Positions 36,716-55,770 of a stretch of 64,000 nt of DNA are shown here, in pieces. The DNA comes from Spirochaetales bacterium. Lineage in GTDB: Bacteria > Spirochaetota > Leptospiria > Leptospirales > Leptonemataceae. A program made the translations under genes and the position numbers. Position 1 is the first letter of the stretch, and each line of letters opens with the position of its first letter. The stretch is from assembly GCA_015075425.1 (NCBI GenBank), contig JABTUL010000001.1, positions 744,001 to 808,000 of the forward strand, read 5' to 3'. The notes under the pieces were generated by a model. The model was not told the origin of the DNA and made no database searches. It was given only the letters and a program-made list of their open reading frames with translations.

Positions 36716-37548
36716 TGTCGCTCCCCGAGCAGAATGAATACATATCAGCGCGCGATGATCGCGACTACCTGCTGGAGTACAAGTCCATCGACATCAGCAG
36801 GCTCAGTCGACTCACATTGCTTGATGTACCGGTGGATAATGTAAGCCGCGATGAGGCTGTTGCCTGTATCCTTGATTTGATTGAGAAAAAGCAGGGGCCG
36901 CACCATGTGCTTTTTATCGATCCCATCAAACTCATGCGCATCCGTCCGGGAAAAAAGTTGCGCTTCATTGCAGAACAGGCGCGTTTGATTCTGGCTGATG
37001 GTGCCGGCATTGTCTGGGCCAGTGAGAAAACGGTCGCACCCCTGAAAGAAAGAATTCCTATGATTTCTTTCATTATGGACATTGTTCGCCTGGCCACATC
37101 CAAACAACTGACCATCTATTTGCTGGGTTCGCGGACGGATCATCTGGAAAAGGTGTTTTTCAATCTGCAAAGATCATTCAATGGTATTCGTATCATAGGC
37201 CGGCAGGGCGGTCACTTTGAAGAAAATAGAGAAGCCCTGGTGAAGGAAGCGTTGCGCAAATCAGCTCCGGATATCATTCTTCTGGGGATGGGGTTCCCGC
37301 AACAAGAAATCTGGATCAAGAACAACTGGGCCTATCTCTCACAGTCTATTGTTATTGGTGTTGATGGAGCTTTTGATCAGCTATCGGGTGAGGAAAAAAA
37401 GGCGCCGGACTGGTGGCAGCTTCGTGGACTCGCCTGGCTCTGGCGCACCATCAGTCGCCCGTGGCTTGCCGGTCGCTTCTGGGCTACCATACATTTTGTT
37501 CTACTGGTCTGGTGGCGATCGTTTAAAGCTCGAAAGCGTCAGCGCTGA
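36715..37548 (+). CDS. WecG/TagA/CpsF-family glycosyltransferase
   Basis: A 277-residue GT26-family enzyme. Recognisable segments are LDVPVDNVSRDEAV, ILADGAGIVWASE with the catalytic-type Asp, IYLLGSRTDHLEKVF, PDIILLGMGFPQQEIWI and IGVDGAFDQLSGEEKKAPDWW. The family adds N-acetylmannosamine or related sugars to lipid-linked glycans on the inner face of the membrane; WecG and TagA are known examples. The C-terminal basic-hydrophobic stretch would give membrane attachment. It is coupled to thiE, which seems unrelated; a role in surface glycan together with the nearby O-antigen ligase is an inference. The end overlaps the repeat/TPR gene by 48 bases. Confidence 0.9.
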   Translation: MSLPEQNEYISARDDRDYLLEYKSIDISRLSRLTLLDVPVDNVSRDEAVACILDLIEKKQGPHHVLFIDPIKLMRIRPGKKLRFIAEQARLILADGAGIVWASEKTVAPLKERIPMISFIMDIVRLATSKQLTIYLLGSRTDHLEKVFFNLQRSFNGIRIIGRQGGHFEENREALVKEALRKSAPDIILLGMGFPQQEIWIKNNWAYLSQSIVIGVDGAFDQLSGEEKKAPDWWQLRGLAWLWRTISRPWLAGRFWATIHFVLLVWWRSFKARKRQR

Positions 37549-40500
37549 ATCGTCTTCCATTATGGGCGCCACCCAGTCGTCAAGGAGGGGTTCTCTTTCC
37601 AGGGAACGGAAAGCCAGCTGCACATTCGCACGTGCGATTTCATGATCCTGACCGATGCGTCGGGCTGCCTCTATGGCACTCCAGTAGTGCTTGAGGCTCT
37701 CCTGCTCGAGCTGCTTCCGTAGAGCCGGATCGCGGCTTGCGTAGGTTTCTTTTTCATAATTGGCACCCAGATTGTTGAGCACAGCAGCGAGGCTCAGAAA
37801 GGTCTGACGGTGGCGGGCATCATCGGGATCGGGATTGGGAATGGTCAGGGATCGATCCGTATACTCTTGTTTAAGTTTAAGATAATTACCCAGTGCCGAG
37901 CGCAGTTGTCCGGTATAAAAGTAGGCATTGGCCAGGCCGTGGACCAGATGGTTGTCTTTATAAGAATAGGATGGATCCATTTCTTCCCAGTGTGAGAGTG
38001 CGTTTTCGAAATCCGAGGAAGTGTAATCAATCCAGCCCAGGTAGTAGCGAATGTGTGCGGCCGCTTCTGTATCTTTAATGTTCTCATGCAAAGCTCGCTG
38101 GAAACAATTGGCCGCCTGGCGCAGGTCGCGTCGCCGGGCCAGCATTTCCGGCGTTTCCACTCCCCGGGATCGATCGGGATAGATTCGATCCGCCGGAAAT
38201 CCTTCTGCCCCTTCAGGGATGCCCGCACTGGAACGATACACGAGGCTGCCCAGATTGTAGAAAATCAGCGCTGGATCGCCACTCATCAGAGTTTCATCTT
38301 CCGGTCGTAAACCATAAGTGCGTTGAAAGCGTTCGTAAACACGTCGGGCTTCAATAAAATATTCCGTGGCCTTTTCGTAATCATGGATGCGCCGGTAGTG
38401 CTCGCCCATGGCATTGACGGCAAGATAGTGGCGATGATCAAATCGGAAGGCATTTTCGAATTGCTTCAGAGCACGAGTCGCTTCTTTGCGTTTCATCAAA
38501 AAGCGCCCGCGCTGGTAAAAGCCTTCGCCGTAAGAGTCCCCTTTGATGGTTTCACCGTCGCGTGATTGTTCGGTCAGGAAGATACGTTCGATGAGATAGT
38601 TTGCATTGTCAGCAATGTCCATCCCGCTCTGTACATCGACGGGATCGATCTGGTATTTGATGCGCAGATCATCCGCTTCCAGATCTATGTAGAAAGCAGC
38701 CAGCTTTGCCAGTGTGTAAATGGGCAGTTCATCTTCCAGGCCCAGTTGACGGACCAGCCGGTGTCTGGCGATCACCAGTCGCGGATCGCTCTGCTTTCTC
38801 CAGATTTCAATATAGGTGTTGAGGAGACCGGCATGCCCACCCACATCCAGGGGTTCTTTTTCCAGTATCCGATTGAATTCACTTGCCGCAGAAGCGTGTT
38901 CATCGTTGCGGTAGTAGACATCGCCGATGCCAGCGATAGCATCTACGTCGTCTGGACGATTCATGAGAGTAAGAATCAAACGATAGTAATCAACACCCAG
39001 TCCATCGTTCTTGTATTCATCGATACGCGGCTGTGCGGTGACGGCCTCCGGGATGCTACAGATATTTCCCGTGGTGAGCGGAGGAAACGTACCCCGATCC
39101 TGTTCAGTCAGAGTGCGGGAATGAAAACGTCCCAGACTGATGAGTGTTGTATGATCGAGTTTTTCATCGCGCAGTCGACTGACTGTATAGGCGCCAGGCG
39201 TCACCAGCCTTCGTTCCAGGCGAGATTGATCGGTGAAGCGCGGTTGTTTTTCTTTATAGATCCAATCTTCCGGAGATGGCCAGCGCGATCCCTCAAGCAT
39301 TCGAATGAGCGGGGCCCGCCTGCCCGGTACATTCCAGGCAAGCTCAGGCCGTGGCGGTTCCTCCCTGCCGTAGGGCGGGTCCACTTCACCAAAGAGTTTC
39401 ACAAAAGCTTGATCCGGATACCCGGCCTGCATATAGGCAATGCCATATTTGTTCAAGTATTCCAGGTTGTGTTCGCCACCGTCAGAGCCCAGTGCCTTCT
39501 TATAGAGTTCTTCTGCCGCTTTGCGGTGTTCTTCGCGGGCGACGGGTTCGGCGTCGCGGGCCAGGCGCAGTTCGCTCAATCCCCTTTCATACAGCGATCG
39601 GGTAGAATAGTAACGGTACAGAGTGAGTCCACCAAGGAGCAGGGAAATGCCAAGCACACCGGCCCCCACGCCGGCCAGAACCAGACGTGCTTTCCGTCGG
39701 CGTGCTGCCAGCTCTTCCGGGCTCTGGCCATCCGCATAGATGATGCGCACGCCATCTTTGCGAATATCAGAGGGAGCGATTTCGGGCCGGTATCCCAGCC
39801 GCGTCTCCAGAAAATCCGCGATGGTGGCTGCCTCAGCACTGTCGGCCACCATATTCATGAGCAGTCGCTGGTCCGGAGCTGTTATTTTTTCATTAACAAT
39901 TGCATCAATGACACTTTTCTTTATACCGGGCGGGTAGTCCAGCAGCGACTGGCGGATGTTGGCCAGTTCCTCATCCGTAAACTCTTCGCCAATGCCCTGG
40001 TTGAGACGTGCCTGGTCGGCCATGGCGGCCAGATCATCGGCGGCCATACTTGAGCCAAAGTCCCCTCCTGCTGCGTCTGAATCCCCGAGGAAGTCCGACC
40101 CGGAGAAGTCGTCATTGGCCGTAAAATCGGGACTTGCCGTAGTCTCCGGAGTAGAGAAGTCGCCGCCAAAGTCATCGGTTGTCGTGAAGTCACCGGTGGC
40201 GGCGAAATCATCGGTTGGTGCAAAGTCAGCGGTGGCGGCGAAATCATCGGTTGGTGCAAAGTCAGCGGTGGCGGCGAAATCATCGGTTGGTGCAAAGTCA
40301 GCGGTGGCGGCAAAATCATCGGTTGGTGCAAAGTCAGCGGTGGCGGCAAAATCATCGGTTGGTGCAAAGTCAGCGGTGGCGGCGAAATCATCGGTTGGTG
40401 CAAAGTCAGCGGTGGCGGCGAAATCATCGGTTGGTGCAAAGTCAGCGGTGGCGGCGAAATCATCGGTTGGCGCGAAGTCAGCGGAGGCCGCAAAATCATC

Positions 40501-41208
40501 GGTCGCCGACGCTTCGCCGAATCCGCTCGCATCAAAGTCGGAGGAGGGCGTATCCGTGCCCAGGTCAAAGTCGGAGGAGGGCGTATCCGTGCCCAGGTCA
40601 AAGTCGGAGGAGGGCGTATCCGTGCCCAGGTCAAAGTCGGAGGAGGGCGTATCCGTGCCCAGGTCAAAGTCGGAGGTAGGCGTATCCGTGCCCAGGTCAA
40701 AGTCGGAGGTAGGCGTATCCGTGCCCAGGTCAAAGTCGGAAGTAGGCGTATCCGTGCCCAGGTCAAAGTCGGAAGTAGGCGTATCTGTGCCCGGATCAAA
40801 GTCGGAGGTGGGCGTATCCGTGCCCAGGTCAAAGTCGGAGGAGGGCGTATCTGTGCCCGGGTCAAAGTCGGAGGAGGGCGTTTCCGTGCCCAGGTCAAAG
40901 TCGGAGGTAGGCGTATCCGTGCCCGGATCAAAGTCGAAAGTGGGCGTATCCGTGCCCAGGTCAAAGTCTGCTGCGGGCGTTTCTGGGCCCGGATCAAAGT
41001 CTGCTGCGGGCGTTTCCGGCGGCGCAGTCTCCACTACGGGCGGCTCTGTGGCCGCATCTTCAGGCAGGGGTCCGCGGAGTTCTGTTAGATCTGACCTGAG
41101 CTGACGGGCCATCGGTTTGAAAAGGTCTGGCGGTGGCTCGCTGAGCGTACCGATCAGATCCGTAATCAAGGCCTGGTCTTCAGGCGAGTATGAAGAAGGG
41201 TCTGCCAT
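37501..41208 (-). CDS. giant repeat/TPR membrane protein
   Basis: A 1235-residue protein. The N-terminal part (about 1-460) is very acidic and repetitive: about 14 units of an 11-residue repeat (type DFDLGTDTPTS) followed by eight units of a 12-residue repeat (ADFAPTDDFAAT). A helical domain (about 400-490, containing FTDEELANIRQSLLDYPPGI) and a basic stretch then lead to one membrane helix near residue 510 (VLAGVGAGVLGISLLLGGL). The remaining 700 residues contain many TPR-like helix pairs (ALKQFENAFRFDHRHYLAVN, GLANAYFYTGQLRSALGNYL). The acidic repeats would be cytoplasmic and the TPR part periplasmic. It probably acts as a trans-membrane scaffold. No family is recognised for the whole chain. 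Divergent from the glycogen-binding-like gene. Confidence 0.85.
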   Translation of the reverse strand: MADPSSYSPEDQALITDLIGTLSEPPPDLFKPMARQLRSDLTELRGPLPEDAATEPPVVETAPPETPAADFDPGPETPAADFDLGTDTPTFDFDPGTDTPTSDFDLGTETPSSDFDPGTDTPSSDFDLGTDTPTSDFDPGTDTPTSDFDLGTDTPTSDFDLGTDTPTSDFDLGTDTPTSDFDLGTDTPSSDFDLGTDTPSSDFDLGTDTPSSDFDLGTDTPSSDFDASGFGEASATDDFAASADFAPTDDFAATADFAPTDDFAATADFAPTDDFAATADFAPTDDFAATADFAPTDDFAATADFAPTDDFAATADFAPTDDFAATADFAPTDDFAATGDFTTTDDFGGDFSTPETTASPDFTANDDFSGSDFLGDSDAAGGDFGSSMAADDLAAMADQARLNQGIGEEFTDEELANIRQSLLDYPPGIKKSVIDAIVNEKITAPDQRLLMNMVADSAEAATIADFLETRLGYRPEIAPSDIRKDGVRIIYADGQSPEELAARRRKARLVLAGVGAGVLGISLLLGGLTLYRYYSTRSLYERGLSELRLARDAEPVAREEHRKAAEELYKKALGSDGGEHNLEYLNKYGIAYMQAGYPDQAFVKLFGEVDPPYGREEPPRPELAWNVPGRRAPLIRMLEGSRWPSPEDWIYKEKQPRFTDQSRLERRLVTPGAYTVSRLRDEKLDHTTLISLGRFHSRTLTEQDRGTFPPLTTGNICSIPEAVTAQPRIDEYKNDGLGVDYYRLILTLMNRPDDVDAIAGIGDVYYRNDEHASAASEFNRILEKEPLDVGGHAGLLNTYIEIWRKQSDPRLVIARHRLVRQLGLEDELPIYTLAKLAAFYIDLEADDLRIKYQIDPVDVQSGMDIADNANYLIERIFLTEQSRDGETIKGDSYGEGFYQRGRFLMKRKEATRALKQFENAFRFDHRHYLAVNAMGEHYRRIHDYEKATEYFIEARRVYERFQRTYGLRPEDETLMSGDPALIFYNLGSLVYRSSAGIPEGAEGFPADRIYPDRSRGVETPEMLARRRDLRQAANCFQRALHENIKDTEAAAHIRYYLGWIDYTSSDFENALSHWEEMDPSYSYKDNHLVHGLANAYFYTGQLRSALGNYLKLKQEYTDRSLTIPNPDPDDARHRQTFLSLAAVLNNLGANYEKETYASRDPALRKQLEQESLKHYWSAIEAARRIGQDHEIARANVQLAFRSLEREPLLDDWVAPIMEDDSALTLSSFKRSPPDQ
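40196..40502. repeat. 36-bp tandem repeat, eight copies
   Basis: Eight copies with start points 36 bases apart (first ggttggtgc at 40215, last at 40467) encode ADFAPTDDFAAT on the minus strand. Copies are almost identical, with a few third-base changes (gcgaaa/gcaaaa), and the last is more diverged. This implies recent expansion and likely copy-number variation between strains. Confidence 0.9.
40535..41010. repeat. 33-bp tandem repeat, about 14 copies
   Basis: About 14 in-frame units of 33 bases encode DFDLGTDTPTS-type repeats on the minus strand. Copies alternate between DFDL and DFDP and between TS and SS; those nearest 40540-40700 are the most uniform. Because the unit is a multiple of three and lacks stops in several frames, it also creates long spurious ORFs on both strands. 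Confidence 0.9.
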
Positions 41209-44716: not shown

Positions 44717-44739
44717 CACCGGTTCAGCCGGTGATTTTT
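44717..44739 (+). terminator. intrinsic terminator after the GDPD-like gene
   Basis: CACCGG (44717-44722), loop TTCAG, CCGGTG (44728-44733), then ATTTTT. A six-base GC-rich stem and short T tract 14 bases after the GDPD-like stop fit rho-independent termination of the plus-strand operon. It overlaps the last codons of the minus-strand ThDP enzyme. Confidence 0.6.
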
Positions 44740-46457
44740 CTGGTAAGTGCCCGCAGGATGAAGCGCGCTTTTTCTCGCAGGGGAAAACGCCCCAGATTGG
44801 CTTTAACCACTCCCTGAGTAAAGCGGGTGCGCCGCGAATAGTCAATGTTTACATCAACTATCACCGGTTGGTTCCCGGCCGACAGCTCACGGGCCCGGGC
44901 AATTACCTCATCGATAGAATCATTGGTGGGCATGGACAGAAAATGCGCTCCGGTGGCATGGGCAATGCCATCAAGCTTAATCTTACCAAGGACAGTGCAG
45001 GTCTTGCGATTGTAGGGAATTTCCTGGCCCTGTGATATCTGGGAAAGTTCTCCATCGTGAAAGACGTAGTAGACGATTCCCAGTCCATAGCTTGTGGCTG
45101 TGAGAATTTCCATGCAGGTCATGAGAAAGGCTCCATCACCAACGATGGCTGCCACCTCGCGCTCCGGGTGGGCGAGTCTGGTACCGATCGCTGCCGGAAC
45201 GGCATAGCCCATGCAGTTGAAATCCGTAGGAGATAAAAAACACTTACTTTCATGCACAGGAAAAAGTTCTTCGGTAAGGAATGTGTGATTCCCATCGTCA
45301 ACAACTAAAATGCCGTTATCCGGGAAATCCCGGCGCAGGGACTGAAAGAAGCGAGCCGGGTTGACGCGATCTTTGCTGTCATGCGCCAGCCAGCTTTCCA
45401 GATATTGCTGGCGAGCTTTCGCGATCACAGCGGCTTTTCCGTTATTTTTTCTTTGCCAGCCAGCATCTTTTACTGCCTGCAGTAGCAGGGAAAGTGCCTT
45501 TGCGGCATCGGACTTTATGGCCACGGTTGCTGGATAATTCTTATGAAATACATCTGGATTGATGTCGATGTGGATGAGCTTCTCAGGCACTTTCATGGAA
45601 AAACTTCCGGTGGGAATTTCCGCAAAGCGCGTGCCCACAGCAATCAAGCAATCGCAGTCGGCAAAGGCCACATCGGCTGCGGGCACAGAATACATACCGT
45701 AGCCCATGCCCGCAAAGAGCGGGTGGTTGCCCGGAAAAACGCTCAGTCCCTGTAGAGTGGTGGCCACCGGGGCCTCCAGCTCCTCTGCCAGGGCAATGCT
45801 TTCTTTGACGGCATCGCGAGCACCCCAGCCCAGAAAGAGACCCACCCTGTTTGCCTGGCAGATCTGGCGGGCTGCCCTGGCGATGAGATCCGGGTCCGGG
45901 CCATTTGTTTTTACTTCCCTTTCCGGGCCAGGCGGAAGGCCGGGAGTGTTACCCGTAAAGAGCAGGATGTTCACAGGGATTTCCACAAAAACGGGGCCCG
46001 GCTCACCAGCGCGGGCCAGTTCAAAAGCGGCAAAGAGAGTGGGCACGATGTCCTTATGGTCTGTGATTTTGTAGTATTTCTTTACTGCTCCACCAACAAG
46101 TTTTTCCTGATCGATCATATGCAACTGGTAATGCCGGCCGCTATCTGTGCGCACACCGCCAGAGATGATGAGCATGGGGATACCATCCAGAAAAGCTTCG
46201 GCAATGCCGGACAGAGCGTGCGTTGCTCCGGCCGCGGGCACAATTACCAGTGTCCCGATCTGTCCGGTGGTTCTGCTGATGGCATCAGCCATGAAGGCAG
46301 CACCCCCTTCATGGGTCACAAGGATGGGTTCAATCCATTCCGATTTTCCCAACTCATCATACAGTTCGGTGTTGTGGACCCCTGGAATTCCAAAAGTGAA
46401 TCGAACTCCCATGGCCTCCAGGACATGGACCACCAGTTGCGCCCCTGTTTTTTGCAT
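44724..46457 (-). CDS. ThDP-dependent enzyme, acetolactate-synthase/decarboxylase superfamily (copy 1)
   Basis: A 577-residue protein with the three-domain layout of the POX/ALS family: Pyr domain (FTFGIPGVHNTELYDEL; catalytic Glu in VTHEGGAAFMADA), central domain (GLFLGWGARDAVKES), and PP domain with GDGAFLMTCMEILTA. In the cofactor motif the position after GDG normally held by Asn (F-N-D-G) is His (YVFHDGELSQ), so metal binding may differ. The substrate is likely a 2-oxo acid; product class (decarboxylation or ligation) cannot be told. AGGAG precedes the ATG by seven bases. It follows the FAD dehydrogenase gene by 54 bases on the same strand, and a second, unlike ThDP enzyme is encoded at 50132. 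Confidence 0.87.
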   Translation of the reverse strand: MQKTGAQLVVHVLEAMGVRFTFGIPGVHNTELYDELGKSEWIEPILVTHEGGAAFMADAISRTTGQIGTLVIVPAAGATHALSGIAEAFLDGIPMLIISGGVRTDSGRHYQLHMIDQEKLVGGAVKKYYKITDHKDIVPTLFAAFELARAGEPGPVFVEIPVNILLFTGNTPGLPPGPEREVKTNGPDPDLIARAARQICQANRVGLFLGWGARDAVKESIALAEELEAPVATTLQGLSVFPGNHPLFAGMGYGMYSVPAADVAFADCDCLIAVGTRFAEIPTGSFSMKVPEKLIHIDINPDVFHKNYPATVAIKSDAAKALSLLLQAVKDAGWQRKNNGKAAVIAKARQQYLESWLAHDSKDRVNPARFFQSLRRDFPDNGILVVDDGNHTFLTEELFPVHESKCFLSPTDFNCMGYAVPAAIGTRLAHPEREVAAIVGDGAFLMTCMEILTATSYGLGIVYYVFHDGELSQISQGQEIPYNRKTCTVLGKIKLDGIAHATGAHFLSMPTNDSIDEVIARARELSAGNQPVIVDVNIDYSRRTRFTQGVVKANLGRFPLREKARFILRALTRKITG

Positions 46458-46511
46458 GATCGTCTCCTGTGTTCTGCCTTCAGGCGGAATTTCTTCTGGA
46501 ATTTTAATAAA

Positions 46512-48149
46512 CTACGAAATGGTCCTGCCCGTAATGGCCGCTGCTGCCCGGCGTCCGGTAAGGATGCAACCGCCAAGGAACGTGCCCTCCAGCGCCGCTT
46601 TACCGTGGATTCCCCCGCCGCCAAAACCGGCAGCCTCGCCCACGGCTAAAAGGCCCGCAATGGGTTGGCCGGAACGATCGAGCACCGCACAGTCCAGGTT
46701 CGTTTGAATGCCGCCCAGGCTCTTGCGACTGAGTATGGACTCCCGGATGGCAATCAAAGGCAGGGCGTCTCTGGCAACGATGGGCTGTTTCTTGAGAGTG
46801 CGCAGGCGATCGCCACGGTAGCGGCGCAAATGCTGGATGCGCCGCAGCTGTTCATCGTTCTGGAATGACCCTTTTGTCAGGATGGCCCGGTCATACTTTT
46901 CTATTTCCTGCTTGAGCAGTTCCCCATCCACGCGCAGGGGGGAGGTGGAATCCGTCCGGTTCATTTTTTCAACCAATTCCGGGACACTGGAAGCCACGAT
47001 GAAATCCGGACAGTGCGCACATAAATCGTCTACAAGCTTTTTGTTTCCGCGGAGCAGGGTCCACAAAAAGGCAAATATGCGCCGGTCGCGGATGGCATCA
47101 TTGAATTCCGATCCAGAAACGGCCAGCTCTTTGAGGGCAATTTTGCGGTTGAGAATCTGCCAGGAGTAGCCGCCGGGTTCTTCACAGATGCGATCCACAA
47201 GGTACTTTGTATCATAAGCGGTGATGAGCGGCAAAGGGCCGATGCGCTGGCCGCGAGCATTGACCCACAGCGCCGTTTTGGGGGGAACGAGAGACAGGCC
47301 GTGGTTTTCAAAAAGAGGGCGCGGGTGGCGCACTCCGGCAGCATAGTTCCACATCCGATTCAGGTGGGTGATCCGGGCGCCGGCTGAAGCCGCAACATCG
47401 TGCAGAAGGCCATCGGCTGTGGGGTAGGATCCGTTCAGGATGGTTGCCGGAGGGTTTCCTTGTCCCCAGAACTCACGGACTTTTTCCAGGCTGCCGCCTA
47501 TGCCACCGGAGGCGAGCACAACATGATCCGCCTGGATCTGGAAATCTCCTCCGGCTTCGAACGCTGAATTTTTTTCCGCATTGCCTTCTATAACGCCATT
47601 GCAGCCCGTTATGCGACCATGGCTGGAAAGCAAACCGGTTACTTTATGCAGGAAACGAATTTCCAGATTCTTCCTTGCAGGATGAGACTCGAGCCTTTCC
47701 AGCAGACGATCAACAAGTCGTTTTCCGGTCCCCCATACCATGTGAAAGCGCGGATAGGTATTTCCCGGTCCGAAGAGTCCACGTTCCACCCAGTGCACAA
47801 AAGGAAAGAAACGGATGCCGTGGCCCTGCAGGTAATCATAGACTGAGCTGCGACTGGCCGCCGTGTAGAGTTCAGCCCAGCGGCGCGGCCATTCATCGCT
47901 TTTTTCGAAACAGGCGGTGGCCAGCCAGTCCTTCAGGGCTTGATCGGCACTGTCTGGAATCCCCAATCTTTTCTGTTCGGGAGAACCGGCGATAAAGATT
48001 CCACCAAAGGAATCGCGGGCCAGCCCTCCCAGGCGGAATGAGGGAGAGCGTTCCAGCATGATGATTTTCCGGCCGCTGTCCAGAAGATCCAGAGCGGTGA
48101 CAATGCCGGCCAGTCCAGCCCCGGCGATTACAACCTGTGTTCTTTCCAT
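46512..48149 (-). CDS. KstD-like FAD-binding dehydrogenase
   Basis: A 545-residue flavoprotein of the fumarate reductase/3-ketosteroid-dehydrogenase type. The N-terminal Rossmann motif is VVIAGAGLAGIVTALDLL with the acidic end in IIMLERS; VVLASGGIGGSLEKVREF and the C-terminal GLLAVGEAAGFGGGGIHGKA with ALEGTFLGGCILTGR complete FAD binding. Enzymes of this class insert or remove double bonds in ring or enoyl compounds; ones closest to this layout are mostly annotated only as FAD-binding dehydrogenases. It heads the minus arm of the bidirectional locus, 81 bases from the radical SAM gene start on plus. Confidence 0.87.
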   Translation of the reverse strand: MERTQVVIAGAGLAGIVTALDLLDSGRKIIMLERSPSFRLGGLARDSFGGIFIAGSPEQKRLGIPDSADQALKDWLATACFEKSDEWPRRWAELYTAASRSSVYDYLQGHGIRFFPFVHWVERGLFGPGNTYPRFHMVWGTGKRLVDRLLERLESHPARKNLEIRFLHKVTGLLSSHGRITGCNGVIEGNAEKNSAFEAGGDFQIQADHVVLASGGIGGSLEKVREFWGQGNPPATILNGSYPTADGLLHDVAASAGARITHLNRMWNYAAGVRHPRPLFENHGLSLVPPKTALWVNARGQRIGPLPLITAYDTKYLVDRICEEPGGYSWQILNRKIALKELAVSGSEFNDAIRDRRIFAFLWTLLRGNKKLVDDLCAHCPDFIVASSVPELVEKMNRTDSTSPLRVDGELLKQEIEKYDRAILTKGSFQNDEQLRRIQHLRRYRGDRLRTLKKQPIVARDALPLIAIRESILSRKSLGGIQTNLDCAVLDRSGQPIAGLLAVGEAAGFGGGGIHGKAALEGTFLGGCILTGRRAAAAITGRTIS

Positions 48150-48230
48150 GAGGATCTCCGATTTTTAGATTGCAGACGCATCAAACTGAAATTGATTGCG
48201 GCTACTGACAAGGAAAAAAGCCTGCATCAC

Positions 48231-49424
48231 ATGTTTCGCTTTCCCTGGACTCTGACAGACAACCCGGTCGGCTGGGTGGAAATCACCGACTCCTGCAATA
48301 TTGAGTGCCGGGGCTGCTATCGCCGCCGCCTGGAGGGGCATAAATCCCTGGCGCAGATTGAAGAGGAGATTGGTTTCATGCAGCGCTTCCGCAATGTGGA
48401 CCAGATCAATCTGGCTGGCGGCGAACCCCTTGTTCATCCGGAAATTGTCGAAATTGTGCGTTTGATTCATGCGCGCGGTTTGAAGCCCTGCATCATATCC
48501 AATGGTCAGCGGCTGAAGAAGCCCGGCCTCCTGGAAAGCCTGAAAAAGGCTGGCCTTGAGCACATCAGTTTCCATGTCGACTCCGGCCAGATCCGGCCAG
48601 GCTGGACCGGAAAATCCGAAGAAGAGCTCAACGCTCTGCGTGAGGTGCTGGCGGACAGGATCCACCGGGCCGGAGGAATCAAATGTGGCTTCAACATGAC
48701 CGTGACGCGCAGCAATCTGGATCATGTGCCGCGTATGGTGCGCTGGGCTTTGTCGCAGCGCGGCCGGGTGACCGGGCTGACCTTTATTGTCTTGCGCGGT
48801 GGTGTTCTGCGTGAAGGCTATACGTATCTGGCCCTGGGCCGGCCGGTGCAAATTCCGCCTGATGCTCTGGGTTATCTAACCGATGAAGCCACTCGTGGTG
48901 AGTATGTGTATGCCACGGATGTGCGCGATGTACTGAGGCAAAATTTTCCAGAATACAGCCCGGCAGCCTATCTGGGTGGTAGCGTGCGATCGGAAAGTCT
49001 CAAGTGGATTGTTGCCCAGACAATTTGTAGCGGCAGGCAGATGATCGGTTCGGCAGGGCCGCGGGCCATCGAATTGTTTCAAAGTGCTTATCACTATCTG
49101 TTTGGTCGCTACTCTCTGGGCAGTCGCAGGCCTCTCGGGCACACGGCGCTGGGGATGGCTCTCCTTGACCGGGGAATGGCGCGTGCGTTCTGGCAATGGA
49201 TTCGGCGGGGCCTTATTTTCCGGCCTGTGTATGGACTGGCTATGGCCATTGTCCAGCCACCGGATGAATTGCCCGATGGAACATTTGAAATGTGCGACGG
49301 CTGTCCCGATATGACCTACTTTCAGGGAAAGCTGGTGCACAGTTGTCGCCTGGATGAGTACAGGCAGTTTGGATCATTGCTCAGTCAGGTTCCGCGACAG
49401 ATGACATCGCAGGCCCGTGATTGA
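48231..49424 (+). CDS. radical SAM enzyme (locus copy 1)
   Basis: A 397-residue protein from the ATG at 48231 (a TTG at 48192 would add 13 residues). VEITDSCNIECRGCYRRR holds the CX3CX2C cluster for the radical SAM 4Fe-4S centre, and INLAGGEPLVHPEIVEIV the SAM-binding GGE motif; FNMTVTRSNLDHVPRMV follows. The C-terminal MCDGCPDMTYFQGKLVHSC has further cysteines that could bind an auxiliary cluster. The middle part (about 230-340) is divergent and includes hydrophobic segments. The reaction cannot be inferred. First gene of the plus arm; the amidotransferase-like gene starts 34 bases after it. Confidence 0.87.
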   Translation: MFRFPWTLTDNPVGWVEITDSCNIECRGCYRRRLEGHKSLAQIEEEIGFMQRFRNVDQINLAGGEPLVHPEIVEIVRLIHARGLKPCIISNGQRLKKPGLLESLKKAGLEHISFHVDSGQIRPGWTGKSEEELNALREVLADRIHRAGGIKCGFNMTVTRSNLDHVPRMVRWALSQRGRVTGLTFIVLRGGVLREGYTYLALGRPVQIPPDALGYLTDEATRGEYVYATDVRDVLRQNFPEYSPAAYLGGSVRSESLKWIVAQTICSGRQMIGSAGPRAIELFQSAYHYLFGRYSLGSRRPLGHTALGMALLDRGMARAFWQWIRRGLIFRPVYGLAMAIVQPPDELPDGTFEMCDGCPDMTYFQGKLVHSCRLDEYRQFGSLLSQVPRQMTSQARD

Positions 49425-49458
49425 TGGAATGAATGGAAACTCTGGGAGGGCTGAGGCT

Positions 49459-50139
49459 ATGGAAATCACCGTGTTTACACATGTTCCCTTTGAGGGTCCG
49501 GCCGCGATCGCTCCCTGGGCAGAAAGTCGGGGCCATTCTTTGCGTATTGTGCACCTGTATCGGGGTGATAGGATTCCGGTCCCGTCGGACTGGCTCATAG
49601 TTATGGGCGGACCGATGGGTGCTCTGGATGACGCAAAGTACCCCTGGTTTGGGCCGGAGAAAAAAGCGATCGATCAGGCCATTGCATCGGGCCGCACGGT
49701 AATCGGAGTCTGTCTTGGGGCGCAACTCATAGCTGCTGTGCTCGGGGCCCGTGTCTTTCGCAATGCCGAGCGAGAAATCGGCTGGTTTGACGTGGCATTG
49801 CACCAACCGGCCGCAGGCCGGGTGTTTGGTGATCACGCCAGGCTGCGCGCATTCCACTGGCACGGCGATACCTTTGACCTGCCTGCAGGAGCTGATCTTC
49901 TGGGCAGCACGCCAGGGTGCAAAAACCAGGCTTTCCTGTACCGGGATCGGGTGCTGGGCCTTCAGTTTCATCTTGAGGCCACACGGGAAAGTATAGAGTC
50001 TTTGATCCGCGAATGCCCTGATGATCTTTTAGCCGGCCCCTTTGTGCAGACAGCGGCGGCCATGCTCGATCGGCAACCCGAGCACGCAGCACTTTTTGAA
50101 CTATTGGATAATCTGGAAAAAGGGGAAACAAATGAGTGA
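49459..50139 (+). CDS. class I glutamine amidotransferase-like protein
   Basis: A 226-residue protein from the ATG at 49459, chosen for the strong GGGAGG ahead of it and the family start MEITVFTHVPFEGP; a longer reading from 49417 is less likely. It has LIVMGGPMGALDD, the nucleophile elbow IGVCLGAQLIAA (Cys), and LGLQFHLEATRES with the catalytic His-Glu, so the triad is complete. Such stand-alone domains either supply ammonia from glutamine or cleave gamma-glutamyl amides. Which partner takes ammonia here is open; the epimerase, ThDP enzyme or radical SAM enzymes are candidates by position. It overlaps the next gene by eight bases. Confidence 0.9.
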   Translation: MEITVFTHVPFEGPAAIAPWAESRGHSLRIVHLYRGDRIPVPSDWLIVMGGPMGALDDAKYPWFGPEKKAIDQAIASGRTVIGVCLGAQLIAAVLGARVFRNAEREIGWFDVALHQPAAGRVFGDHARLRAFHWHGDTFDLPAGADLLGSTPGCKNQAFLYRDRVLGLQFHLEATRESIESLIRECPDDLLAGPFVQTAAAMLDRQPEHAALFELLDNLEKGETNE

Positions 50140-51883
50140 ATCGTGGAATGCCGGGAGCGTCGTTGCTCGTATCTTAAAACAGGAAGGAGTGGAGAAGATC
50201 TTCGGGATCATTGATGGCACCTATTTTGGCTTTTACTCGTCTGCCGTAAAAGAAGGAATGCAGCTGATCACGCCGCGCCATGAAACGAGTGCGGCGCATA
50301 TGGCCGGTGCCTACGCGCGGTTGACAGGAAAGCTGGGTGTTTGCATGGCCTCGAATGGCCCGGGAGTGGCCAATATATTGCCGGGCCTTGTGGTGGAAGA
50401 GGGAGAAGGAAATCGTCTGCTGCTGATCACGAGTGCGCGGCGTACGGGGATCATGTACCCGGATCGCGGCGGCACCTACCAGTGCTTTGATCAGGTGGCG
50501 GTAATCGCTAAAATTGCTAAATACAGTGTGGCCGTGCCTTCCTTTGAGCGTACGGCAGAAATCATGCGCTCCGCTTTGCGACACTGCTACAGTGGTCGGC
50601 CCGGCGTGGTCCATGTCGATATCCCAGAAAATATTATGAATACAAAAGTGAAGGCAAGCCCGGATTTGCGCCACCCCGAGCGTTACCGTGTGATGGAGCC
50701 TCTGACGCCCTCGACAGATCAGGTTCGCCGGGCCGCCGATATGCTGTGTGCAGCAAAGCTTCCCATGATCCATGCGGGCAGTGGTGTTTTGCATTCAGGG
50801 GCTTCTCTTCTTTTAGAAGAGGTGGCCGATTTGTTGCATGCTCCGGTCACGACCAGCTGGGCGGCGCGGGGGGCTCTGCGCGAAACCCACGAACTGGCCA
50901 TTCCTATGGTGGATGTAACGCTCAATCATCGGGTGCGAAACGCCGCCGACCTGGTTCTGGTGCTTGGATCGCGCCTCGGAGAAACGGACTGGTGGGGCAA
51001 AGCTCCTTACTGGAAGCACCCCGCCGGACAACAGATGATTCAGGTGGATACGGATGCGTTCATCCTGGGAGCCAATAAGCCGGTGGATCTGGCCATTCAG
51101 GCTGATGTTAAGGTACTGCTTTCTCTACTTGCTCTGGAGCTTCGCAGTCGCAGCCTTGATCAAAATCACCGTCGCAAAGAAATGCAACAATTCAGCAAGT
51201 ACCGGCAGGCCTATCGGGCCCGACTGGATCGAGCCTTACAAAAGGAAAGCCAGCTGGTTCATCCTGCACGGGCGGTCATGGCCTGCCGCGAGACCCTGGG
51301 GGATGAAACCATCCTTGTTGCTGACGGTGGCAATACGGCGATCTGGGCCAATTTTTACTGGCAGGTGCGTACGGCCGGCACCGTGCTTTCCACTTTCAAA
51401 TTTGGTATGCTGGGTGCAGGCGTGGCCCAGGCGCTGGGGGCAGCCGTAGCCCGCCCGGGAAAGCAAGTGTGTTGTATCATTGGCGATGGAGCGATGGGCT
51501 TTCATCCGCAAGAGATCGAAACCGCAGTGCGGCACGGATTAAAGGTTCTGTATGTAGTACTGTGTGATCGCCAGTGGGGCATGGTAAAGATGAACCAGTC
51601 CTTTACCTTGCGCCCGTGGAAAATGCTTCTGTACAAAAGACTGGATCCGGGCGAAACAATTGCTGCGGATCTGGGAGAAATTCGCTTCGATCTGGTGGCC
51701 CGGGCGATGGGGGCGTATGGAGAACGCGTGCAGACTAACTCTGAGCTCCTTCCCGCACTGGAGCGCTGTATCCAGAGTGGCCTTCCGGCAGTTTTGCATG
51801 TCGATGTAGATCCGGTCGCTCATATGTGGGCTCCCGGACTGCGTCACTTCAAAGACATGCATCTGGAACCAGGAAGGCGTTGA
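50132..51883 (+). CDS. ThDP-dependent enzyme, acetolactate-synthase superfamily (copy 2)
   Basis: A 583-residue protein from the ATG at 50132 (GGGGAAACAA upstream), overlapping the amidotransferase gene by eight bases. Pyr domain: IFGIIDGTYFGFYSSAV, catalytic Glu in TPRHETSAAHMAGAYARL; central domain: DLVLVLGSRLGETDWWG; PP domain: IIGDGAMGFHPQEIETAV with VVLCDRQWGMVK where the usual Asn-Asn is Cys-Asp, so Asp would take the metal-ligand place. It differs clearly from copy 1. It probably acts on a 2-oxo acid within the pathway encoded by this locus. The epimerase gene begins one base after its stop. Confidence 0.88.
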   Translation: MSESWNAGSVVARILKQEGVEKIFGIIDGTYFGFYSSAVKEGMQLITPRHETSAAHMAGAYARLTGKLGVCMASNGPGVANILPGLVVEEGEGNRLLLITSARRTGIMYPDRGGTYQCFDQVAVIAKIAKYSVAVPSFERTAEIMRSALRHCYSGRPGVVHVDIPENIMNTKVKASPDLRHPERYRVMEPLTPSTDQVRRAADMLCAAKLPMIHAGSGVLHSGASLLLEEVADLLHAPVTTSWAARGALRETHELAIPMVDVTLNHRVRNAADLVLVLGSRLGETDWWGKAPYWKHPAGQQMIQVDTDAFILGANKPVDLAIQADVKVLLSLLALELRSRSLDQNHRRKEMQQFSKYRQAYRARLDRALQKESQLVHPARAVMACRETLGDETILVADGGNTAIWANFYWQVRTAGTVLSTFKFGMLGAGVAQALGAAVARPGKQVCCIIGDGAMGFHPQEIETAVRHGLKVLYVVLCDRQWGMVKMNQSFTLRPWKMLLYKRLDPGETIAADLGEIRFDLVARAMGAYGERVQTNSELLPALERCIQSGLPAVLHVDVDPVAHMWAPGLRHFKDMHLEPGRR

Positions 51884-51884
51884 T

Positions 51885-52925
51885 ATGCAGAGGGATTCCT
51901 CTGCGCGAACTGGCGCAAAAAATACTGTTGCTCCCGGCCGGATCGTGATTCCGCGCATGCGAGTCCTCATCACCGGAGCCGGTGGTTATGCAGGCAGTCA
52001 ATTGGTACAGTCCCTCTGCACTGATGAAACGATTGATGTCATGGCCACGGATGTGCGCTTCTTAGCAGAGCAGGGTCGCGAAAACCGGCGCGTCTGCGAT
52101 ATCCGCGACCGTGAATCTGTGCAGGAACTGTGGTCAGAGTATCGGCCTGATGCTGTAGTGCACCTGGCCTCGGTTGTGAATCCCGGGAAAGGAAGCAGCC
52201 GTCAGTTTGAGTATGAGGTGGATGTAGGAGGTACAACCAATGTGCTCAATGCCAGCATCCAGACGCATGTGGAACGCTTGATTGTCACTTCGAGTGGTGC
52301 CGCCTACGGTTACCATAAGGATAGTCCCCGACCCCTCAAAGAAACAGATTCCCTGCGGGGGAATTTTGAATTTCCGTACTCCCACCACAAGCGCCTGGTT
52401 GAAGAGCTGCTGGCAGATCATAAGAAAAACGGACTGAAGCCTGACCTTGTCATTTTTCGCGTCGGGACGATCCTTGGCCAGACGACCAGAAATCAGATTA
52501 CAGCGCTCTTTTTGCGGCCACGATTGCCGGCTGTTTGCGGCAGCGACAGCCCCTTTGTATTCATCTGGGACCAGGATGTGATGGCGGCGATTCTGCATGC
52601 GCTGAAAAGAGAGCGGAATTCTTTTGTGGCTCCGGTCGGCATCTACAATCTGGCCGGCGATGGCTATCTGAGTGTTGACGAAATCGCGGCCAGGCTCGGG
52701 AAGAAGGTGCAACGTTTTCCGGCCTGGTTTTTGCGGTTTCTATTTGCCGTGCTCCGCCCTCTGGGACTTTCTCGCTACGGGCCGGAGCAGGTGCGCTTTT
52801 TGCAATACAGGCCGGTACTCGACAATGGAGAATTGAAGAGAACATTTGGATTTCTGCCGCAGATGACCAGCGCGCAGGTTTTTGACTATTACTGTAAACA
52901 CAATGTTTTCCAGAAGAAAACGTGA
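51885..52925 (+). CDS. NAD-dependent epimerase/dehydratase (extended SDR)
   Basis: A 346-residue extended short-chain dehydrogenase. The core starts at MRVLITGAGGYAGSQLVQ (residue 25); AGGAAGG precedes the ATG at 51885, so the 24-residue extension is probably real. It has VVHLASVVNPGKG, SSGAAYGYHKDSPRPLKE, and YSHHK as the catalytic YxxxK, with Ser in TSSGA, so it should be active. Substrates are commonly nucleotide sugars but other hydroxy/oxo groups are possible. It ends with a hydrophobic helix (AWFLRFLFAVLRPLGLS) that could touch the membrane. The truncated SDR gene starts inside its end. Confidence 0.88.
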   Translation: MQRDSSARTGAKNTVAPGRIVIPRMRVLITGAGGYAGSQLVQSLCTDETIDVMATDVRFLAEQGRENRRVCDIRDRESVQELWSEYRPDAVVHLASVVNPGKGSSRQFEYEVDVGGTTNVLNASIQTHVERLIVTSSGAAYGYHKDSPRPLKETDSLRGNFEFPYSHHKRLVEELLADHKKNGLKPDLVIFRVGTILGQTTRNQITALFLRPRLPAVCGSDSPFVFIWDQDVMAAILHALKRERNSFVAPVGIYNLAGDGYLSVDEIAARLGKKVQRFPAWFLRFLFAVLRPLGLSRYGPEQVRFLQYRPVLDNGELKRTFGFLPQMTSAQVFDYYCKHNVFQKKT

Positions 52926-53466
52926 TCTGAGGGGAACCAGGGCTCTGCTTACGGGAGCCTTTGGAAATCTGGGGCGTGCCCTTTCTTTCGAGCTGGCCCG
53001 CCGTGGCTGTGAGGTAATTGGCGTGGATCGCGATCGGGACGCCCTGCGCCTCCTGGGGCAGGAATTCGCTGAGCTGGGTTTTCCTCATAGCCTGGAGGTG
53101 ATCGATCTTGCCGATTCCCGCGCGCTGGGCGAGTTCCTGTCCCGTCAGCTCAACCGGCCACTCGATATTTTGATTTTGAATGCCGGGATAACCCGCATAC
53201 GGTCCTTTTCGCAAACCGATGAGGTCGATTTTCGTTCCGTAATGGAAGTGAATTTTTTTGCTCCCGTACGTCTTGTCAGTGAATGTCTGGATCGATTGCC
53301 GCGAACAAAGGGCTCACTGCTTCCATCGGATGTGGCCAGCCGGGTCGTCGCCGCCCTCGAAGCACGCAAATCTCGCCTGTATCTGCCTCTGCAATCTCTG
53401 GTGGCCCGACTGATCTGGGGATTGTCTCCAGACCTGTATATTTCTTTAATGAAAAGACGCGCTTGA
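52903..53466 (+). CDS. SDR-family protein lacking the catalytic core (internal deletion)
   Basis: A 187-residue protein from the ATG at 52903 (overlap of 23 bases with the epimerase gene). Residues 1-120 follow classical SDRs: ALLTGAFGNLGRALSFELAR (NAD(P)-binding TGxxxxxG), IDLADS, ILNAGITRIR and VMEVNFFAPVRLVSE. At RTKGSLLPSDVASRV the part that normally holds the catalytic Ser, Tyr-x3-Lys and the substrate loop (some 70 residues) is missing in frame, and the normal C-terminus resumes (SRLYLPLQSLVARLIWGLSP). The product may still bind dinucleotide but cannot use the normal catalytic residues. It may be a decaying gene or a binding-only subunit. Confidence 0.75.
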   Translation: MFSRRKRDLRGTRALLTGAFGNLGRALSFELARRGCEVIGVDRDRDALRLLGQEFAELGFPHSLEVIDLADSRALGEFLSRQLNRPLDILILNAGITRIRSFSQTDEVDFRSVMEVNFFAPVRLVSECLDRLPRTKGSLLPSDVASRVVAALEARKSRLYLPLQSLVARLIWGLSPDLYISLMKRRA

Positions 53467-53499
53467 TCCGGTGGAATAGGGACAATCTGGAGGTAGATC

Positions 53500-54684
53500 G
53501 TGTTTGAAGGGATTCCTTTCAGCATTTCCCTGGATCAGGCTGGACGATTCCTGGTGAAAAGTCATCAATTGCCGGAAGCTCCTCTCCTCTATCTGGAGGA
53601 TTATTTACAGGCAGTCAATCGCTACAAGAATGCAGGCAGTGCCAGCGATCCCTTGTTCAGTCTCTATCAACCTCCTCTATTGTCTCATGCCGGGCATCGT
53701 GCGCTCCACCACAGACTCAAGCGTCGCTTTGAGAGGGCACGCATTCCCGCTTCAGCGACCATTGGTATGAGCAGGCACTGTCAATGCCATTGTTTGCATT
53801 GCAGCGCCAGCTATCACATGGCCTCAGCACGCGAAGATTTAACAACAGATCAAATGGTCCAGGCTTTCCGGGAGAGTGTGGACGCTGGTGTAACGACCCT
53901 GATCCTGGTGGGTGGTGAACCGCTGATTCGGCGTGACCTGGAAAAGATTTTAGAAAAAACCAGAACAGACCGGGCCTCCGTGATAGCCTTCAGCAATGGC
54001 GAACTGCTGACAGAGAAACGTGCCAGTTCCCTCAGAGCAGCAGGTCTATTGGGAATTTTTATCTCCCTCGATTCTCCCGAGGAAAAGGAACACAACGAGT
54101 TGCGCGGCCGGCCCGGCCTCTTTGAAAAAGCGATGCGAGCCATAGCTGCCGGCCGGTCCGCCGGTCTTATGATGGGAATTTCCAGTTATTTGACGGACGA
54201 ACGTGTGCAGGCCGGATATGTGGAAAAATTTATGGATCTTGCTGCTGAAACGAAGGCCATGGAAGTGACTTTCTTTGATGCCATTGCTACCGGTCGTCTA
54301 AAGGACGGTCGCCATACTTTCCTTTCCGATTCTGTCCGCCTGGATCTGCATGAACGGGTCCGACGCTTTCAGCGTGATCCTTTGAGCCCGGCTATCTCAG
54401 CACAATCCACGCTTACTTCCCGGCGTGGTAGCGCTTTTTGCTTTGCCGGCAACACCCAGTTTTATCTTTCGAGTAACGGTGCCTTCTGCCCCTGCGACTT
54501 TACTCCACTACATGCCGGCTACTTTCCCGAGTTCAGCATTGCTGCTCTGTGGAAAAAATTAGTCAGTCATCCCTGTTACCGGAAACGTTCCCGGGTATGT
54601 CGGATGCAGGATCCAGGGTTCCGGCGTGCATTCATCGATACGATCCCACATGATGCTGTCCTTCCTTATCCCCTTTCTCCATAA
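53500..54684 (+). CDS. radical SAM enzyme with C-terminal SPASM-like cysteines (locus copy 2)
   Basis: A 394-residue protein from a GTG with GGAGGT six bases upstream. MSRHCQCHCLHCSASYH holds the CX3CX2C cluster at about residues 91-98 and LILVGGEPLIRRDLEKIL the GGE motif; GIFISLDSPEEKEHNELRG is typical of SPASM-type enzymes. Near the C-terminus, FCFAGNTQFYLSSNGAFCPC and later SRVCRM give cysteines for an auxiliary cluster. The N-terminal 85 residues precede the barrel and have no match I know. Such enzymes modify peptides or sugars, or join carbon chains. Last member of the plus arm before trpD, 63 bases away. Confidence 0.88.
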   Translation: MFEGIPFSISLDQAGRFLVKSHQLPEAPLLYLEDYLQAVNRYKNAGSASDPLFSLYQPPLLSHAGHRALHHRLKRRFERARIPASATIGMSRHCQCHCLHCSASYHMASAREDLTTDQMVQAFRESVDAGVTTLILVGGEPLIRRDLEKILEKTRTDRASVIAFSNGELLTEKRASSLRAAGLLGIFISLDSPEEKEHNELRGRPGLFEKAMRAIAAGRSAGLMMGISSYLTDERVQAGYVEKFMDLAAETKAMEVTFFDAIATGRLKDGRHTFLSDSVRLDLHERVRRFQRDPLSPAISAQSTLTSRRGSAFCFAGNTQFYLSSNGAFCPCDFTPLHAGYFPEFSIAALWKKLVSHPCYRKRSRVCRMQDPGFRRAFIDTIPHDAVLPYPLSP

Positions 54685-54747: not shown

Positions 54748-55770
54748 ATGCTAACGGCCGTCTTGAAGCAACTCATCGATCGTCAGGATCTGGATGCGGC
54801 AAGCGCCACACAGGCAATGACAGCCATTATGACCGGCGAGGCCGGTGAAGCCATGACCGCAGCGCTGCTTGTGGCTCTGCGCTGCAAAGGCGAGAAAGCC
54901 CATGAGGTAACGGCTTTCGTGCGTTCCATGCGCAAAGCTGCTTTAGTATGGCCTGAGGCTACCGGGGACCTTTGCGATACTTGTGGCACCGGCGGCGATG
55001 GTCGGGGAACCATTAACATCTCCACTCTTTCCGCGCTGCTGCTGGCGAGTTTAGGACACAGCGTTGCCAAGCACGGCAATCGAGCAGTGAGCAGCACGTC
55101 GGGCTCCGCCGATTTGCTCGAAGAACTGGGGCTCAAACTCGATCGCAGTGTGGAGGATGTCATCGTTGATTTGCGCCGCTCCCGCATTTGTTTTTTATTT
55201 GCCCCGCTCTGGCATCCAGCCATGAGGCATGCGGCTCCGGTGCGCCGGTCGCTGGGCATACGAACCGTTTTTAACATGCTTGGACCTCTGACCAACCCGG
55301 CCCCGGTGGCCTATCAGTCCGTGGGAGTCTTTGATCCTGAGTTGCTTGAGCTCATGGCTGAAGTTTTGTGCAGCCTGGACCGGAAGCTTGCCTATGTGAT
55401 TCATTCGCAGGATGGCCTGGATGAGATTTCACCGGAAGTGCCAACTCGCTACATTCGCGTGGAGCAGGGACGGGTGGTAGAAAAGGGGGAACTGCGACCG
55501 GAGGATTTTGGTGTCCGCCCCTTTGCTCTGTCCAGGATTCAGGTGCCGGATAAAAAAGAAGCCTTCAGCCGGGCCCAGGCTCTGATTCGGGGAGCAGGAC
55601 TGGAAGAAGATCGAACCATTGTGGCGATGAATGCGGCACTTCTGCATGGAGGACGGCGCGGACTGTCTTTAAAAGATGCATACGAGGAGTGCCGTTCTGA
55701 ACTGCAAAGCGGGCGGCTGGAAAGTATCCTGAAAAGCTGGATTGAAAGAATCCCCCTCCCATCCAATTAG
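54748..55770 (+). CDS. trpD: anthranilate phosphoribosyltransferase
   Basis: TrpD transfers the phosphoribosyl group of PRPP to anthranilate, the second step of tryptophan synthesis. The 340-residue product has normal length and complete motifs: CDTCGTGGDGRGTINIST (PRPP site), VAKHGNRAVSSTSGSAD, FLFAPLWHPAMRHAAPVR, RTVFNMLGPLTNPA and DGLDEIS. No other trp gene is in the window; it follows the radical SAM gene by 63 bases on the same strand, so it may be part of that transcription unit or have its own promoter. The family also includes enzymes acting on other aromatic or heterocyclic amines, worth keeping in mind given the location. Confidence 0.94.
   Translation: MLTAVLKQLIDRQDLDAASATQAMTAIMTGEAGEAMTAALLVALRCKGEKAHEVTAFVRSMRKAALVWPEATGDLCDTCGTGGDGRGTINISTLSALLLASLGHSVAKHGNRAVSSTSGSADLLEELGLKLDRSVEDVIVDLRRSRICFLFAPLWHPAMRHAAPVRRSLGIRTVFNMLGPLTNPAPVAYQSVGVFDPELLELMAEVLCSLDRKLAYVIHSQDGLDEISPEVPTRYIRVEQGRVVEKGELRPEDFGVRPFALSRIQVPDKKEAFSRAQALIRGAGLEEDRTIVAMNAALLHGGRRGLSLKDAYEECRSELQSGRLESILKSWIERIPLPSN

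Follow-up and report, generated by a model that had tools for sequence, protein, structure and literature searches.

A lineage-specific composite locus in a Spirochaetales bacterium encoding a short radical SAM protein with a predicted tetraether-synthase-like fold

A ten-kilobase locus of eight genes was analysed within a 64,000-nucleotide stretch of DNA (the window) from a Spirochaetales bacterium of the Leptonemataceae (assembly GCA_015075425.1, contig JABTUL010000001.1, positions 744,001 to 808,000), the genome of which comprises 4.13 Mb in 4 contigs. As far as genomes were sampled, the locus is a lineage-specific composite and not a conserved pathway cluster. Its parts are a flavin adenine dinucleotide (FAD)-binding dehydrogenase with a thiamine diphosphate (ThDP) enzyme, ThDP1 (module A); a second ThDP enzyme, ThDP2, with an epimerase/dehydratase (EPI) and the remnant of a short-chain dehydrogenase/reductase (SDR) (module B); two radical S-adenosylmethionine (SAM) enzymes, rSAM1 and rSAM2, which are single genes elsewhere (C); and a generic class I glutamine amidotransferase (GAT; D). 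A preliminary description had listed these eight genes with coordinates and domains, and its list was confirmed by open reading frames (ORFs) that were open in all eight cases and by profile scores for the expected domains. It had also named conserved co-occurrence of the genes as a test of a single pathway. The eight-gene set was in no other genome, neither among 296 sampled Spirochaetota nor around 80 rSAM1 loci, and its pieces were found separately; the single-pathway interpretation is therefore weakened. What continues to be of interest is chiefly rSAM1, together with the co-distribution of rSAM2 and the FAD–ThDP1 pair.

The rSAM1 protein belongs to the radical SAM superfamily (PF04055, 65.9 bits, cut-off 29.5 bits; CX3CX2C at C22/C26/C29). 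An AlphaFold2 model of rSAM1 (pLDDT 91) was searched with Foldseek and gave tetraether lipid synthase (Tes; 7TOM/7TOL) as the top match. Alignment of the model with 7TOL in VIA-align gave a Z score of 26.6 over 300 residues with an r.m.s.d. of 3.1 Å, spanning residues 1-381; the next protein was MoaA (Z 17.6). A PDB profile search also placed 7TOL first (3.5e-15), over the radical SAM core only. All members of the rSAM1 family that were compared (51/51) matched Tes below E 1e-4, with a best value of 2.5e-20, and rSAM1 itself scored 43.4 bits on the Tes model NF045702, under the cut-off of 450 bits.

Archaeal Tes couples two lipid chains at their terminal carbons. The enzyme, GDGT-MAS, contains three [4Fe-4S] clusters and a rubredoxin iron; the C-terminal [4Fe-4S] cluster, with Met439 as a labile ligand, adjoins the lipid channel, the N-terminal rubredoxin site is formed by C9, C12, C33 and H36, and the [4Fe-4S]N site by C73, C77, C80 and a His (PMC9433317). 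In rSAM1 just 21 residues precede the CX3CX2C motif, with no Cys among them, so that the N-terminal sites of Tes have no counterpart. Because the rubredoxin and [4Fe-4S]N parts are absent, rSAM1 was not classed as Tes; judged from the model, it is a member of a structurally similar, shorter family and not itself Tes. The fold alignment with 7TOL covers the C355/C358/C372/M354 region; an equivalence of these residues with the C-terminal cluster ligands of Tes is putative.

Residues C22, C26, C29, M354, C355, C358 and C372 were invariant in 51 aligned rSAM1 sequences and M361 nearly so, which gives a C-terminal motif of C355-X2-C358-X13-C372. The best 80 of 108 relatives from one scan were kept and their neighbourhoods studied; they were essentially full length (~36-43% identity) and came from Myxococcota, Gemmatimonadota, Bacteroidota/Ignavibacteria, KSB1, Elusimicrobia, Actinomycetes, Planctomycetota, Proteobacteria and other phyla. 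Five further relatives are held by Spirochaetota. In most genomes rSAM1 was a single gene, usually outside any obvious operon, and clustering of the neighbours in the 80 loci gave no universal partner gene. Matches of rSAM1 and rSAM2 in plasmids were partial only, to radical SAM proteins. The rSAM1 family is uncharacterised, and a literature search on it returned nothing directly relevant. Tetraether synthase homologues are present in bacteria not known for biphytanyl chains (PMC9433317), and bacterial homologues have been proposed to make membrane-spanning bacterial lipids relevant to palaeoclimate proxies (PMC8941075).

Lipid-type neighbours were found at some rSAM1 loci. In L079 (3894-14065) the rSAM1 homologue lies among OleC-like (685 bits to NF006754), OleD-like (381 bits, under the 580 cut-off), dehalogenase-fold hydrolase and two CrtI-like genes. 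In L066 and L073 the gene immediately before it encodes another radical SAM protein, which in L066 is of the B12-binding type, and upstream lie genes for an acyl-AMP ligase, an acyl-CoA dehydrogenase or an epimerase; those of L066 include fatty acyl-AMP ligase-like and acyl-CoA dehydrogenase-like genes. As a separate observation, a nitroreductase-family gene follows rSAM1 in other Spirochaetota (L152 in genome G066 and L153 in G032), with the gene order beyond it common to both; each of these genomes also has a distant rSAM2 elsewhere.

In module A, ThDP1 scored 320.5 bits on the acetolactate synthase (ALS) equivalog model TIGR00118, under the cut-off of 538 bits, and is by score not a biosynthetic ALS. 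A better ALS-type match is present at C2:858986 of the host genome, and ThDP1 is ~31% identical to that protein. The catalytic Glu (E50) and the GDG motif are invariant, and the basic C-terminal tail is conserved. Orthologues of ThDP1 were found in six Spirochaetota (58-62% identity), in gammaproteobacteria (53-54%) and in Gemmatimonadota (42-44%). Among 30 genomes of the order, G010, G012, G013, G014 and G024 have an orthologue (59-62%), and the FAD gene adjoins it on the same strand in 5/5; the sixth orthologue (G176) is on a short contig, with the FAD gene outside view. The FAD protein had been described as a KstD-like dehydrogenase, an assignment that was replaced by membership of the PRK12834 family (equivalog NF009472, 508.5 bits, cut-off 476), since its scores of 51.8 and 39.3 bits on KstD models were far under the cut-offs of 789 (NF009478) and 788 (NF005882). 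The AlphaFold model of the FAD protein (pLDDT 64) was too poor for use. No tblastn match to ThDP1 or ThDP2 was found in plasmids at 1e-60. Two gammaproteobacterial loci, L176 and L177, carry the ThDP1 orthologue (53-54%) near a histidine-decarboxylase-family gene (486 bits in L177, cut-off 305), and in both an ACT-type protein, a small membrane protein and a polyphosphate-kinase-2-like gene are encoded nearby.

In module B, ThDP2 scored 286.0 bits on TIGR00118, again below the level of a biosynthetic ALS. Its orthologues (50-77%) were found in 14 other Spirochaetota of the 296 sampled. An operon of ThDP2, a sodium/bile-acid-type (SBF) transporter, EPI and SDR is present in G010, G015, G094 and G159; in other relatives EPI directly follows ThDP2 or the transporter, and in several loci genes for a sigma-54 activator and a TauE-type permease are close by. 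The window version consists of ThDP2, EPI and the SDR remnant, with the transporter absent, and the window EPI was placed inside the module-B group of a tree (support 91/99). The earlier call of a defective SDR was upheld by alignment with seven intact relatives: some 67-70 residues, which include SSVSG and YxxxK, are cleanly deleted in frame, and the window SDR lacks the catalytic Ser and YxxxK of a classical SDR. As this SDR is dead, module B may be simply decaying. A reading of the module as sulfonate catabolism (TauE/SBF transporters, Xsc-like ThDP enzyme) was considered as a possibility; the Xsc score, 239.6 bits, is far under the cut-off of 676. Two copies of the ThDP2-EPI-SDR module are present in each of the genomes G016 (L129, L131) and G159 (L188, L189).

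The radical SAM Cys residues (CX3CX2C) of rSAM2 (PF04055, 70.2 bits) were invariant in an alignment with eight relatives. No named family was matched by rSAM2 at its cut-off; the SPASM model (PF13186) gave 18.6 bits against 21.5, the C-terminal Cys region being weakly SPASM-like. Orthologues were found in G007, G010, G012, G013, G014 and G024, with more distant ones in G032 and G066, and in none of these eight genomes do they adjoin other locus genes. Direct reading of GAT located the GVCLGAQ nucleophile motif (GxCLGxQ) and FHLE (HxE), and a homologue was present in 23/30 genomes of the order-level survey; GAT is classed as a generic class I amidotransferase.

Three kinds of proximity or profile connect the pieces. 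rSAM2 and ThDP1 occur together in five genomes of the order besides that of the window (hypergeometric p 5e-5 over 29 genomes; 0.006 over 17 genera), values that are indications and not strict probabilities because the genomes are related; G011, a congener of G012-G014, has neither gene. EPI matches of >100 bits were obtained at only four of the 80 rSAM1 loci: in L075, L083 and L089 the matching gene adjoins rSAM1, in L017 a single gene lies between the two, and each match shares the strand of rSAM1. These four EPI-like genes are the nearest relatives of EPI outside module B and form a tree group separate from the HpnA-like epimerases that accompany some of them. In L042 (Gemmatimonadota) the order is rSAM1, a PAP2-family protein, a class II aldolase (opposite strand), a GMC oxidoreductase and a ThDP1-like gene (43%), with ~4 kb between rSAM1 and the ThDP1 homologue. 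All three go beyond chance. Together with the FAD–ThDP1 and ThDP2-EPI-SDR pairings they are the partial links in favour of the earlier interpretation, the rSAM1–ThDP1 one in a single genome; the eight-gene set itself recurs in no genome examined.

Taken as a whole, the locus is best explained as a composite whose arms may modify a long-chain or lipid-like substrate, a reading given about an even chance. The fold match of rSAM1 to tetraether synthase makes a lipid role a fair guess, and such a role is probable on the model; of the products first suggested, a lipid thus keeps some support and an amino sugar has none. In the proposed mechanism, rSAM1 would generate a 5'-deoxyadenosyl radical that removes H from an unactivated alkyl carbon, and the resulting carbon radical would be held or coupled by a C-terminal cluster with C355/C358/C372 as ligands. 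ThDP1 would catalyse acyloin-type C-C bond formation, or cleavage of a 2-oxo/2-hydroxy acid, followed by oxidation of the product by its FAD partner. EPI may perform an NAD(P)-linked reduction, oxidation or epimerisation of a hydroxyl, and rSAM2 may serve the same physiology as the co-distributed FAD–ThDP1 pair. A bolder version, in which rSAM1 represents an undescribed, widespread bacterial family of short tetraether-synthase-like enzymes acting on long-chain lipids of bacteria, where they would functionalise unactivated carbons or join them, coupled here with FAD–ThDP1 and a repurposed ThDP2–epimerase in a new lipid-tailoring route, is speculative and rather doubtful. A compact tetraether-synthase relative in many bacterial phyla with the C-terminal cluster motif only would be a concrete candidate family. 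The locus illustrates the gathering of separately inherited metabolic modules in one place.

Several observations weigh against a lipid-modifying composite. The match of rSAM1 to Tes is one of fold, with sequence similarity in the radical SAM core only; just a few of the 80 rSAM1 loci have lipid-type neighbours; the SDR is dead and module B is possibly just decaying; and no Spirochaetota genome besides the host has rSAM1 and ThDP1 together. In addition, rSAM2 was detected at E<=1e-30 in 0/50 rSAM1-bearing genomes of other phyla, which argues, if weakly for a search made with no positive control, against a general rSAM1–rSAM2 system.

The strongest rival, less probable than the lipid-modifying composite and still to be taken seriously, is that the genes are accidental neighbours: a decaying module B beside which other genes were inserted, each piece working or dying alone with no joint function. 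The absence of the set from other genomes, the pieces being unlinked in relatives, the defective SDR, the missing transporter and the solitary state of rSAM1 in most genomes all agree with it. Chance assembly accords less well with the short gaps and overlaps along the plus arm, with open frames of high orthologue identity (ThDP2 77%, rSAM2 55%), or with the common profile of rSAM2 and FAD–ThDP1 and the recurring rSAM1–EPI neighbours. One dedicated biosynthetic cluster for an unusual amino sugar, lipid head group or natural product, with eight proteins acting in sequence, is improbable: tight packing and the side-by-side families for C-C bond formation, radical chemistry, amidation and epimerisation would suit it, but there is no conservation in the 296 Spirochaetota or around the 80 rSAM1 loci, GAT is generic, the SDR is dead and the locus contains no glycosyltransferase, nonribosomal peptide synthetase, polyketide synthase or carrier protein. 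Ordinary branched-chain metabolism, with the ThDP genes as acetolactate synthases near trpD, draws on the ALS-like fold, on ALS being among the best-scoring models and on a trpD above its cut-off, and is hardly tenable against scores of 320 and 286 bits (cut-off 538) and the ~31% identity of ThDP1 to the ALS-type protein at C2:858986; the two enzymes did not turn out to be ordinary acetolactate synthases, the second outcome that the preliminary description had named as counting against it.

The features are collected in Table 1. The divergent centre proposed earlier was found as described, between the FAD gene start at 48149 (-) and the rSAM1 ATG at 48231 (+). ThDP1 and the FAD gene are separated by 54 bases, whereas rSAM1 and GAT share 8 bases, as do GAT and ThDP2. 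For EPI, a start at 51957 is likelier than one at 51885 (end 52925). A simple scan gave no sigma-70 consensus promoter in the 81-base centre, and promoter-like sites across the region were no commoner than in shuffled sequence; the joint regulation that had been suggested is therefore inferred from gene spacing only. The adjacent trpD exceeds the TrpD equivalog cut-off (TIGR01245, 353.3 bits against 199) and is by score an ordinary anthranilate phosphoribosyltransferase; the idea that it supplies a nucleotide-like piece gained no support. Elsewhere in the window, at 37501-41208 (-), a 1235-aa ORF contains long runs of near-identical short units (e.g. DLGTDTPTSDF, ADFAPTDDFAAT) before a TPR-like part.

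Table 1. Features of the locus and the adjoining gene (window positions).
Feature	Position	Strand	Basis
ThDP1, ALS-fold ThDP enzyme, 577 aa	44724-46457	-	Pfam TPP_enzyme_N/M/C
FAD-binding dehydrogenase, PRK12834 family, 545 aa	46512-48149	-	NF009472
Divergent intergenic centre, 81 bases	48150-48230		Without sigma-70 consensus
rSAM1, radical SAM enzyme	48231 (ATG)-49424	+	PF04055, CX3CX2C
GAT, class I glutamine amidotransferase domain protein	49417-50139	+	PF00117, 60 bits
ThDP2, second ALS-fold ThDP enzyme, module B	50132 (ATG)-51883	+	Orthologues 50-77%
EPI, NAD-dependent epimerase/dehydratase (extended SDR), module B	51957-52925	+	PF01370, 93 bits
SDR remnant, classical SDR with in-frame deletion	52882/52903-53466	+	Alignment with 7 intact homologues
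rSAM2, radical SAM enzyme	53500-54684	+	PF04055, 70.2 bits
trpD	54748-55770		TIGR01245

Parts of the locus can be compared with known systems. The ole olefin-synthesis genes OleC and OleD have counterparts near an rSAM1 homologue in one genome (L079); the window contains none of them save a distant extended SDR, EPI (39 bits to an OleD model). The FAD protein scores above the cut-off of the PRK12834 family, which had no ThDP neighbour in the two plasmid loci examined, whereas it stands beside ThDP1 in relatives of the host. BbmA (8X3X), CsmA (8X3Z) and acetolactate synthase are the best solved sequence relatives of ThDP1 and/or ThDP2 and have the three-domain ThDP fold and the catalytic Glu in common with them; a literature search on BbmA/CsmA returned nothing directly relevant. 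Identity to these enzymes is low and both window proteins fall under every NCBIfam cut-off, and in its HDGEL motif ThDP1 has an invariant Asp (D468) where ALS has Asn, besides its conserved basic C-terminal tail. The fold nearest to that of rSAM1, across nearly all of the model, is that of Tes/GDGT-MAS (7TOL, 7TOM; PMC9433317, PMC8941075). Compared with Tes, rSAM1 is ~130 residues shorter, lacks the N-terminal rubredoxin and second auxiliary cluster domains and has ~17% structural identity; like Tes, it consists of a radical SAM core and a C-terminal domain, which has three invariant Cys and Met at 354 and 361, residues that may correspond to the ligands of the C-terminal cluster of Tes with its labile Met.

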